A model generated the notes under the pieces. It was given only the letters and a program-made list of their open reading frames with translations, made no database searches and was not told the origin of the DNA. Source: Anaeromyxobacter terrae (GTDB taxonomy: Bacteria; Myxococcota; Myxococcia; Myxococcales; Anaeromyxobacteraceae). Taken from it: 64,000 nt of DNA. Position numbers and translations under genes: made by a program. Position 1 is the first letter of the stretch. Each line of letters begins with the position of its first letter. Positions 3,663 through 7,266 of the stretch are shown one piece after another. The stretch lies in contig NZ_JALCYY010000008.1 in assembly GCF_022690685.1 (NCBI RefSeq), positions 62,001-126,000 of the forward strand, given 5' to 3'.

Positions 3663-4544
3663 GTGGCCCTTCGTGCGCGCGCCGTCCCCGGGAACGTGCC
3701 CGGCGATCTCTTCGTCGACGATCGCTGCATCTCCTGCGACACCTGCCGCCGCCTCGCGCCCGCGACGTTCGGCGGCGGCGAGGACGAGCGCGCCTTCGTC
3801 GCGGCGCAGCCCGCCGACGGCGAGGCGCGCCGGCGGGCGCTCCTCGCGCTCGTCTCCTGCCCGGTCGCCGCCATCGGCTCCGCCTCGGGCGCGGGCGTAC
3901 GCGAGGCCTCCCGCGCGTTCCCCGTCGCGCTCGCGCCGGAGGCGCGCGACGTCCTCGACTGCGGCTACGCGGCGGAGTCCTCGTTCGGCGCGGCGTCCTG
4001 GCTCCTCCTGCGACCGGCCGGCAACGTCCTCGTCGACTCCCCGCGCTTCGCGGCGCCGCTCGCCGAGCGGGTGCGCGCGCTCGGCGGGGCGCGCCTCATG
4101 TTCCTCAGCCACCGCGACGACGTCGCCGATCACGCCCGCTGGGCGGAGGCGCTCGGCTGCGCCCGCGTGCTCCACGCGCGCGACGTGACCGCCGCGACCC
4201 GCGGCGTGGAGCTCCGCCTCGAGGGCGACGACCCCGTCCGGCTCGCGGACGACCTCCTCGCGATCCCGGTGCCCGGCCACACGCCGGGCTCGGCGGCGCT
4301 CCTCTTCCGCGAGACGTACCTCTTCACGGGCGATCACCTGTGGGGCGACGCCGAGGGCCGGCTCGGCGCGTCGCGGGCGGTGTGCTGGTGGGACTGGGGC
4401 GAGCAGATCCGCTCGATGGAGCGCCTCGCGGCCCATCGCTTCGAGTGGGTGATCCCCGGCCACGGCCGACCCTGGCGCGCGCCGACCGTCGAGGCGGCGC
4501 AAGCGGCGGTGCGCGCGCTCGCGGCGGAGATGCGGGAGCGCTGA
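3663..4544 (+). CDS. Ferredoxin-like domain fused to a metallo-beta-lactamase-fold hydrolase
   Basis: A 293-residue two-domain protein from a GTG start. Residues 17-75 form a single-cluster ferredoxin domain, DDRCISCDTCRRLAPATF with a fourth Cys in SCPVAAI, enough for one [4Fe-4S] or [3Fe-4S] cluster. Residues 100-270 are a metallo-beta-lactamase fold. The usual HxHxDH metal motif appears as SHRDDVADH, with the later ligands in VPGHTPGS, FTGDHLWG and VIPGHGRPW. This variant motif together with an N-terminal ferredoxin is known from uncharacterised plastid/bacterial proteins. A redox-linked hydrolase or persulfide/thioester-type chemistry is possible, but the substrate is unknown. It converges with the DUF1232 gene, 8 bp away. 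Confidence 0.85.
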   Translation: MALRARAVPGNVPGDLFVDDRCISCDTCRRLAPATFGGGEDERAFVAAQPADGEARRRALLALVSCPVAAIGSASGAGVREASRAFPVALAPEARDVLDCGYAAESSFGAASWLLLRPAGNVLVDSPRFAAPLAERVRALGGARLMFLSHRDDVADHARWAEALGCARVLHARDVTAATRGVELRLEGDDPVRLADDLLAIPVPGHTPGSAALLFRETYLFTGDHLWGDAEGRLGASRAVCWWDWGEQIRSMERLAAHRFEWVIPGHGRPWRAPTVEAAQAAVRALAAEMRER

Positions 4545-4552
4545 AGCCGGCG

Positions 4553-5017
4553 CTAGAGTCCGAAATGGGCCGGCGACAGCCCCTTCCACGCACAGTACTC
4601 GCGCAGCTCGCGCTTCACGAGGCCCCAGGTCAGCGCGAGCAGCACCGCGTCGTCCGCGAGGCCCACCGGGAAGAGGAAGTCCGGTACGAGGTCGATGGGC
4701 GAGAGCACGTACGCGACCGCGGCGGCGAGCGCGGCGACGGACTTCCACGGCACCTTGCGGTACGTGCCGTTCGCGTAGTCGCGGAGCACCATCCAGAGGA
4801 GCCTCAGCTTCGCGCGGAACGCGCCGGGCGCGCGGCGCGCGTACCACGGCGGGCGCCGAAGGAAGCGGCGCGCGGCGGAGGCGCGCCCGGGGAGGCTCTC
4901 GGGGGTGATGTCCTTCGCCTCGCGGGCGAGCTCGCTCGCGGCGGCCTCGCGGCAGGAGAGGCAGTCCGCGTTCGAGCCGAGCAGGCGCGCGCAGGCGGGG
5001 CAGGTGCGGGTGGCCAT
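4553..5017 (-). CDS. DUF1232 (YkvA-type) membrane protein with N-terminal zinc ribbon
   Basis: A protein of 154 residues. Residues 5-22 form a small zinc ribbon (CPACARLLGSNADCLSC). The second half has the DUF1232 signature, VAYVLSPIDLVPDFLFPVG, followed by a hydrophobic segment DDAVLLALTWGLV; this family is membrane-associated and of unknown function. The region between is basic (ARRFLRRPPWYARR) and could lie on the cytoplasmic face. The ATG at 5015-5017 gives a complete zinc ribbon. It lies 71 bp downstream of the KirBac-like gene on the same strand, so it may be the last gene of that long operon. Confidence 0.85.
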   Translation of the reverse strand: MATRTCPACARLLGSNADCLSCREAAASELAREAKDITPESLPGRASAARRFLRRPPWYARRAPGAFRAKLRLLWMVLRDYANGTYRKVPWKSVAALAAAVAYVLSPIDLVPDFLFPVGLADDAVLLALTWGLVKRELREYCAWKGLSPAHFGL

Positions 5018-5088: not shown

Positions 5089-5991
5089 TCAGCGCACCGC
5101 GCTCCGGCGCGGGGTGCGCTCGTCGGGAGGCTCGATCGCCACCACCTCGTGGAAGCGGCGGTAATCGACGGCGTGATCTCCGCCGGGGAGCACCTTCACG
5201 ATGTCGCGGAAGCGCACGTCCCAGCGGAGCTCCTCGGGGAGGTAGGTGCGGCGCGCGTGGATGACGCGGGAGAGCCCCTCGTCGAAGCCGGAGAGGGTCA
5301 CGACGAGCTCGGCGTCCTCCGCCGCGAGGGACGACTCGGTCTCGCCGAAGAGGGGGCTCTCGCGGGTGACCGGGTGCACCGCCGTCCAGGCGTGGGAGAA
5401 GAGCGCCGAGCCGCCGCGCGCGAGCGGGAGGTCATGGGCGCGGCGCACCACCTCGCCGTCCTCGCCGCGCTCGTTGCGCACGAGCATGACGGACACCTTC
5501 GCGTCGAGGATGTGGCTCGTCCGCTCGTTCGCCATGCGGAAGAGGAGTGCGCGGCCGCCCGCGTGCGGGCCGATGACCGCGACGCGGCTGAAGATGACGC
5601 GCGCGGGGATGCGCGAGTACTTGGCGAGCAGGATCCCGGCGCCGATGACCGCGAGCAGCCAGCGCACGAAGGTCTCGACCGCGGAGACCGCCCCGCCGGC
5701 GAGCCAGCGGCCGGAGAGCGGCGGCGCCGGCGCCGGCGGCGCGTCGGCGGCGGCGAGGAGCGCGGGGATGACTGACGCACCCGGCGGCCACTCCGCCGCG
5801 AGGGCGAGGTGCGCGAGGCCGAAGAGCGCCTGGGTGCCGAAGAAGACCAGCGCGTAGATCGTGACGAGGCGGGTCCAGCTGCCCGTCACGAGCCGATGGT
5901 AGAGGTCGGCCAGCGGGCGCCGGCGGAGCCCGATGACCTTCACGCCGCGGCGGGCGTGCCCGAACACCCGGGTCGAGCCGATGTCGGCCAT
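5089..5991 (-). CDS. KirBac-type inward-rectifier potassium channel homologue lacking the selectivity filter
   Basis: A 300-residue homologue of bacterial inward-rectifier channels. Seen: a slide-helix-like N-terminus, TM1 about residues 40-65 (LVTIYALVFFGTQALFGLAH), TM2 about 99-124, then the cytoplasmic immunoglobulin-like domain. Its KirBac hallmarks are AKYSRIPARVIFSRVAVI, HDLPLARGG, ESPLFGETESSL, VIHARRTYLPEELRW and HAVDYRRFHEV. Odd: the pore helix and the TVGYG filter that should lie between TM1 and TM2 are absent. Instead there is an Ala/Pro-rich linker (residues 75-95, ADAPPAPAPPLSGRW). No TVGYG coding sequence is found in the other frames of this stretch, so a simple frameshift does not explain it. 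It is therefore probably not a potassium channel and may act as a membrane sensor or regulatory subunit. It is 52 bp downstream of mtnA in the gat operon run. Confidence 0.85.
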   Translation of the reverse strand: MADIGSTRVFGHARRGVKVIGLRRRPLADLYHRLVTGSWTRLVTIYALVFFGTQALFGLAHLALAAEWPPGASVIPALLAAADAPPAPAPPLSGRWLAGGAVSAVETFVRWLLAVIGAGILLAKYSRIPARVIFSRVAVIGPHAGGRALLFRMANERTSHILDAKVSVMLVRNERGEDGEVVRRAHDLPLARGGSALFSHAWTAVHPVTRESPLFGETESSLAAEDAELVVTLSGFDEGLSRVIHARRTYLPEELRWDVRFRDIVKVLPGGDHAVDYRRFHEVVAIEPPDERTPRRSAVR

Positions 5992-6043: not shown

Positions 6044-7057
6044 CTACCTCGCGGCGAGGGCCGCGAGGCCGGGCCCGAACGGACGCCGCACGACGCCACG
6101 CTCGGTGATGAGGGCGGTGACGAGCGCCTCGGGCGTGACGTCGAAGGCCGGGTAGCGGGCCGGCACGCCCACCGGCGCGATGCGCTGGCCGGCGAGCATC
6201 AGCACCTCCTCGTCGCCGCGCTCCTCGATCGGGATCGCCGCGCCATCCGCCGTCTGCAGGTCGACCGTGCTCCACGGCGCCGCCACGTAGAACGGCAGGT
6301 GGTGGTAGGCGGCGAGCACGGCGAGCGCGTAGGTGCCGATCTTGTTCGCGACGTCGCCGTTCGCGGCGATGCGATCGGCGCCGACCACGACGCAGGCGAT
6401 CTCCCCGCGCGCCATGAGCCAGCCGGCCATGCCGTCGGTGAGGAGCGTCACCGGGATCCCGTCGCGCTTCAGCTCCCAGGCGGTGAGCCGGGCGCCCTGC
6501 AGGAACGGGCGCGTCTCGTCGGCGAACACGGAGATGGCGTTCCCCGCCTCCACCGCCGCCCGGACGACGCCGAGCGCGGTGCCGTAGCCGGCCGTCGCGA
6601 GCGCGCCGGCGTTGCAGTGGGTGAGGACGCTCGCGCGCGGCGGGAGGAGCGGCGCGCCGAGCGCGCCGATGCGCCGGCAGGCGGCCTCGTCCTCGTCGCG
6701 GATGGCGTGCGCCTCCCTGAGGATCGCCGCCGCACCCAGCCCGAGCCGGCGCGACATCCGCCGCACCGCCCAGGCGAGGTTCACCGCGGTCGGCCGCGCG
6801 TGCACGAGCGTCTCGGCCACCTCGCGGAGCCGCGGCGCCTCGGCCCCGCGGCGCGCCTCGACGGCGAGCCCGTAGGCGGCGGCGACGCCGATCGCCGGCG
6901 CCCCGCGCACGGTGAGGTTCTTGATCGCCTGCACGACCTCCTCGGCGGAGGCGAGCTCGAGCCAGACCTCGTCGGCCGGCAGGCGCCGCTGGTCGAGGAC
7001 GCGGACGACGTCGCGCGCCTCGTCGTAGAGCACCGGCCTGAGCGGCTCCGCGTTCAT
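6044..7057 (-). CDS. mtnA: S-methyl-5-thioribose-1-phosphate isomerase
   Basis: MtnA (337 residues) converts methylthioribose 1-phosphate to methylthioribulose 1-phosphate in the methionine salvage pathway, in the cytoplasm. It is an eIF2B-like isomerase. Seen motifs are [19 protein letters not shown] near residue 47, [11 protein letters not shown] with the catalytic Cys near 152, [17 protein letters not shown], and [20 protein letters not shown] with the catalytic Asp. The length is normal. The ATG at 7055-7057 follows GGGGAGGGAGAG and overlaps the stop of the 70-residue membrane protein (ATGA), so the two are translationally coupled. No other methionine-salvage gene is in the window. Confidence 0.95.
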
Positions 7058-7266
7058 CGACTCTCCCTCCCCAGTCCCGCGAAGAGCCGCAGGGCGAAGT
7101 AGACGGCCGCGAGCGCGGCCACCGCCGCGGCCGGGAGGCGCCGCTCGCTCGCGAGCACCCCCGCGACCACGGCGCAGCTCACGAGCGCGATCCACAGGAA
7201 CACCTTCGTCGGACCCGCCGCGCCCGCTCCGGCCGGACCGGCGCCCCATCCCGCCCACCTCGCCAT
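7054..7266 (-). CDS. Small membrane protein, function unknown
   Basis: A 70-residue protein that I do not recognise. After a Gly/Ala/Pro-rich start of about 20 residues there are two hydrophobic segments, [18 protein letters not shown] (about 22-39) and [20 protein letters not shown] (about 46-65), joined by a short basic turn (SERRLP), so it is likely a helical hairpin in the inner membrane. Its stop overlaps the mtnA start (ATGA), and it follows gatB by 57 bp on the same strand, which supports it as a real gene of this run. Confidence 0.65.

Follow-up and report, generated by a model that had tools for sequence, protein, structure and literature searches.

The gene at positions 5089-5991 of the window (the whole stretch of 64,000 nucleotides from Anaeromyxobacter terrae that was analysed) encodes a KirBac homologue in which the potassium selectivity filter is replaced by a different segment. 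By sequence, it is filed as an orthologue of NirBac1.2, a characterised channel from the same genus. By analogy with the characterised members, NirBac1 proteins of this type are very likely KirBac-derived, homotetrameric, lipid-activated, non-selective monovalent cation channels with a swapped P-loop. A Kir type lacking the filter is not new, as the NirBac family was published in 2015. Such proteins are unusual among Kir proteins, but the family had already been described with functional data.

The gene, its product and its neighbours

The following features are considered.

5089..5991, minus strand: NirBac1 (NirBac1.2-type) gene, 300 aa, KirBac homologue without filter
5683..5793, minus strand: residues 67-103, the segment in place of the P-loop; a short helix-like stretch of Ala and Leu and an Ala/Pro linker, with Arg95 invariant and TxGYG absent
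5614..5682, minus strand: TM2, residues 104-126; NirBac-specific Arg110-Trp111, Leu122 at the KirBac gate position
5122..5598, minus strand: cytoplasmic Kir domain IRK_C, residues 132-290 (Pfam)
6044..7087, minus strand (start approximate): mtnA-like gene of the IF-2B family, conserved on the upstream side
4553..5017, minus strand: gene of a DUF1232 membrane protein, conserved on the downstream side (Pfam and genus comparison)

IRK_C (residues 132-290, E 1e-30) is the sole Pfam match of the window protein. Hydrophobic segments are observed at residues 39-66 (TM1) and 104-126 (TM2), approximately. Among solved structures the best phmmer match is KirBac3.1 (residues 17-284, E 4e-43), and residues 6-291 align to KirBac1.1 (E 2e-35); the structures matched were all Kir or KirBac, with no solved NirBac among them. 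The alignments to the two KirBac proteins that the sequence-only reading had suggested thus show full-length homology, and the Kir fold it had proposed, with two membrane helices and a cytoplasmic domain, is confirmed.

The KirBac alignment covers TM1, TM2 and the cytoplasmic domain, and the stretch at the pore helix and TVGYG is EWPPGASVIPALLAAADAPPAPAPPLSGRWLAGGAVS. The pattern T.G[YF]G was found neither in the window protein, in agreement with the earlier claim that pore helix and filter are missing, nor in the remaining frames of the minus strand that are listed for the linker region, so that a frame error does not rescue the filter, as had also been noted. The P-loop is about three residues shorter than in canonical relatives. 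Thus the filter is absent as described, but the wording of a deletion is not accurate, since a segment of almost equal length stands in place of the P-loop. The AlphaFold model of the window protein, made with the A. soli orthologue as the sole alignment partner, has a mean pLDDT of 34 and is unusable.

The gene is preceded by gatC, gatA, gatB and mtnA and followed by the DUF1232 gene, all on the minus strand. This gat operon setting, pointed out earlier from the window, is kept as gatC-gatA-gatB-mtnA-NirBac-DUF1232 in every Anaeromyxobacter genome with flanks available. NirBac is dispensable, as genome G003 shows: there, a gap of about 300 bases is all that separates mtnA from the DUF1232 gene, and NirBac is absent (L095:8594-10410, G003:C126). 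On the other side of the DUF1232 gene, on the opposite strand (window 3663-4544, plus), lies a gene that joins a Fer4_13 ferredoxin-like domain to a metallo-beta-lactamase-like domain; it occurs in several Anaeromyxobacter genomes.

Changes in TM2 and at the gate

Several TM2 columns set NirBac1 apart from canonical relatives. Arg110 is invariant in NirBac1, whereas this position is Gly in 19 of the 22 canonical relatives and Ser or Ala in the rest. The adjacent Trp111, also invariant, corresponds mostly to Leu. Leu122 replaces a Phe that is present in all 22 canonical relatives; in the phmmer alignment it falls on Tyr132 of KirBac3.1, which is known as a point of constriction (PMC8222812). 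The Arg-Pro following TM2 is lost or altered. The Gly119 hinge position and Glu106 are retained.

From these column differences, NirBac remodelling is seen to span the pore lining, at least as far as sequence comparison tells, and not the P-loop alone as the 2015 paper put it. Arg110 and the change from Phe to Leu122 would be part of the rebuilt pore. We see an outside chance that the rebuilding goes further still: that P-loop and TM2 residues were changed together in the Anaeromyxobacter ancestor, that the pore is thereby rebuilt as a whole, not a KirBac pore with a new filter, and lipid-gated, with a four-arginine ring, and that its natural permeant or job differs from a simple K+/Na+ leak.

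Assignment to the NirBac family and function

The name NirBac was given to such proteins by Zubcevic et al. 2015, Sci Rep (PMC4607889). NirBac1.1 is YP_467386 of A. dehalogenans 2CP-C and NirBac1.2 is YP_001381495 of Anaeromyxobacter sp. Fw109-5; both genes were confirmed by PCR and sequencing (PMC4607889). After purification both proteins were stable oligomers of tetramer size (about 120 kDa), and in liposomes they acted as non-selective channels for monovalent cations, K+ included, that are activated by POPG (PMC4607889). The uptake of 22Na+ rises more than five-fold from 25% to 50% POPG, and the lipid activation was mapped to the TM/pore domain by a chimera (PMC4607889). Na+, K+, Rb+, Cs+ and Li+ drive 22Na+ uptake by NirBac1.1 similarly; NirBac1.2 prefers Na+, K+ and Rb+ and does not carry Ca2+ (PMC4607889). 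The evidence for conduction is liposome tracer flux only, as PMC5429665 too remarks.

The window protein is filed with NirBac1.2 because it is 92% identical to the NirBac of genome G007 (L003), and G007 is very probably Anaeromyxobacter sp. Fw109-5, which would make L003 NirBac1.2 itself; the link to YP_001381495 runs through this identification. L006, which is 61% identical to the window protein, is very probably NirBac1.1. Orthology of the window gene to the Anaeromyxobacter NirBac1 genes is seen in a single clade (100/100) and the shared neighbourhood.

We infer that the window protein behaves like NirBac1.1 and NirBac1.2. An ancestral KirBac potassium channel would have exchanged its pore helix and TxGYG for a different, Ala-rich segment in the Anaeromyxobacter ancestor. 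By orthology, four window-protein subunits most likely assemble into a Kir-like homotetramer with the cytoplasmic Kir domain, the transmembrane part most likely passes Na+, K+ and Rb+ with little selectivity, and anionic lipid most likely activates the channel.

The sequence-only reading had instead suggested a Kir fold that no longer conducts potassium, perhaps a membrane sensor or an accessory subunit. This is unlikely, because NirBac1.1 and NirBac1.2 conduct and the window's genome contains no other Kir subunit. As a sensor of membrane or lipid, the protein would keep the tetramer, the new P-loop and Arg110 would plug the pore, and the cytoplasmic domain would signal to a partner. The absent filter, the invariant Arg at a near-invariant Gly of TM2, the requirement of NirBac activity for anionic lipid (PMC4607889) and the DUF1232 membrane protein as a constant neighbour are consistent with such a role. 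However, the purified oligomers of both proteins, from the same genus, pass Na+, K+ and Rb+ (PMC4607889), and no signalling partner was identified; we consider the sensor improbable.

Other potassium channel genes in the genus

An accessory subunit, dominant-negative or modulatory, would require a canonical KirBac to act upon. Kir channels are tetrameric and can be heteromeric, and such a pair of genes does exist in one genome: G006 (6.7 Mb), alone in the genus, has in addition to NirBac a canonical KirBac with TIGYG (L048:5223-6049; G006:C1:457222-458049). This second Kir gene is contrary to the published remark that Anaeromyxobacter has no other obvious potassium channel (PMC4607889). However, neither a second IRK_C protein nor an Ion_trans_2 protein was found in the window's genome (99.98% complete), and in this and six further Anaeromyxobacter genomes NirBac is the only IRK_C protein. 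Moreover, purified NirBac oligomerises alone (PMC4607889). The accessory role is thus very improbable and, as the window's genome has no partner gene, largely refuted for it.

Orthologues and selection

The orthologue search covered 60 related genomes, including nine of Anaeromyxobacter (the window's own counted). NirBac orthologues are present in eight of these nine, the remaining species having no gene. The one close relative given by a contig scan, a sequence from A. soli SG29, apparently belongs to the same contig as L002, and so was not counted as a ninth. The seven other orthologues are 59-96% identical to the window protein. All eight are open frames, and none contains a TxGYG filter; hence no orthologue in the genus has the intact TVGYG that would have pointed to a recent deletion here.

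Over the gene, dN/dS within the two close sub-clades is approximately 0.07-0.26, and TM2 has no amino acid changes within either. Evolution is quicker in the P-loop than elsewhere in the protein, with a pairwise omega of 0.0-0.7 (based on few changes) and an identity of 24-52% between sub-clades. The gene is thus maintained under purifying selection; it did not arise by error and is not decaying, and the conserved gene order agrees with this. From its position in the operon, the earlier reading had judged it not obviously a decaying copy. Decay of the gene, or loss of its filter through a mistake in assembly or reading frame, has a practically negligible probability and is ruled out: the Ala/Pro-rich linker does resemble low-complexity filler and the P-loop is fast-evolving, but eight open filter-less orthologues come from independently assembled genomes, dN/dS in total lies far below 1, and two genes of the family were re-sequenced by PCR (PMC4607889).

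Distribution and origin

IRK_C matches occur in 54 of 195 Myxococcota genomes. The sequences behind nearly all of them were read; a weak match of 62 residues in G087 was left out. Every full-length KirBac read from Myxococcota other than Anaeromyxobacter contains T(I/V)GYG. Thus filter-less relatives within the phylum, for which a search had been proposed, do exist as the seven further Anaeromyxobacter proteins, but not among the other full-length Myxococcota KirBac. On this Myxococcota-wide sampling, loss of the filter is a genus trait of Anaeromyxobacter.

The IRK_C pieces in L072 (at a contig edge) and L077 do not reach the pore region. In L077 (G163:C1:298600-300600) an IRK_C tail without the Kir transmembrane part follows, in another frame, a membrane protein that looks like the LtrA type; it looks like a truncated gene, a fusion or an assembly join. 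In L069 (G072:C12) a KirBac gene is frame-shifted between TM2 and the cytoplasmic domain, with TIGYG in the upstream frame.

In a maximum likelihood tree of 46 proteins, the eight filter-less NirBac are split off by one branch (support 100/100). This stem branch is long (1.12 changes per column). In Pfam the eight match IRK_C only; the models of the pore, IRK and Ion_trans_2, match none of them but all ten canonical relatives tested. Judged by the tree, the filter-less clade has one origin, and the P-loop would most simply have been replaced once, in the Anaeromyxobacter ancestor.

Kinship of the P-loops

No homology was found between the P-loops of NirBac1.1 and NirBac1.2 (PMC4607889). In our shuffle test the comparison of 1.2-type with 1.1-type P-loops was likewise not significant (p 0.38), as was that of L005 with L006 (p 0.14). 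However, the P-loops of L001 and L005 are related (p 0.0004), and so are those of L004 and L006 (p 0.0002). The P-loop of L004 is thus akin to the 1.1 type. That of L005 is akin to the window type, yet the protein as a whole is placed with the 1.1 type (92/71). This hints that the two published types may stem from a single segment that diverged, and not from two separate replacements.

Columns A77, L78, A80, A82, L92 and R95, mostly common residues, are shared by all eight P-loops; the sequence-only reading had proposed to look for a conserved residue in the linker. R95 may be inherited, because several canonical relatives have Arg there too. The Ala/Pro-rich character noted for the linker is specific to the window sub-clade; elsewhere in NirBac1 the P-loop is rich in Ala, with fewer prolines.

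Comparison with known systems

The NirBacs show that the P-loop can be swapped with the rest kept, although no other part of the tetrameric cation channel fold is as conserved. The locus adds to this eight orthologues in the genus, two of which (L004 and L005) stand rather far from either published type. It also adds an Anaeromyxobacter species that lacks the gene, and a signature in TM2, beyond the P-loop. This wider set, together with the signature, makes conduction by filter-less Kir proteins and the role of Arg110 easier to test structurally.

Compared with NirBac1.1 and NirBac1.2, the window protein belongs to the same genus and has the same Kir architecture, likewise without TxGYG. Its P-loop differs from that of L003 by six residue changes, ordinary orthologue divergence, and is about 35% identical to that of L007, of the 1.1 type.

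With KirBac3.1 and KirBac1.1, the alignment takes in the slide-helix region, both TM segments and the cytoplasmic Kir domain over their full length, whereas NirBac1 has no pore helix and no TVGYG, has Arg110-Trp111 for Gly-Leu in TM2 and an altered R-P motif after it; at the gate, the aromatic Tyr132 of KirBac3.1 is replaced by Leu122. Thus, of the features of a K+-selective KirBac, two TM segments and IRK_C are present, whereas TxGYG is absent from the window protein and its seven orthologues.

TbIRK of Trypanosoma brucei (PMC5429665) is another Kir homologue that conducts despite lacking the signature sequence. However, it is eukaryotic, K+-selective, has GGYVG and is no orthologue of NirBac1, in which no such Gly-rich motif was found. 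NirBac2.1 of Gemmatimonas aurantiaca (PMC4607889) is homologous to KirBac, and its filter is altered to TTGTD; unlike NirBac1, it keeps the overall P-loop.
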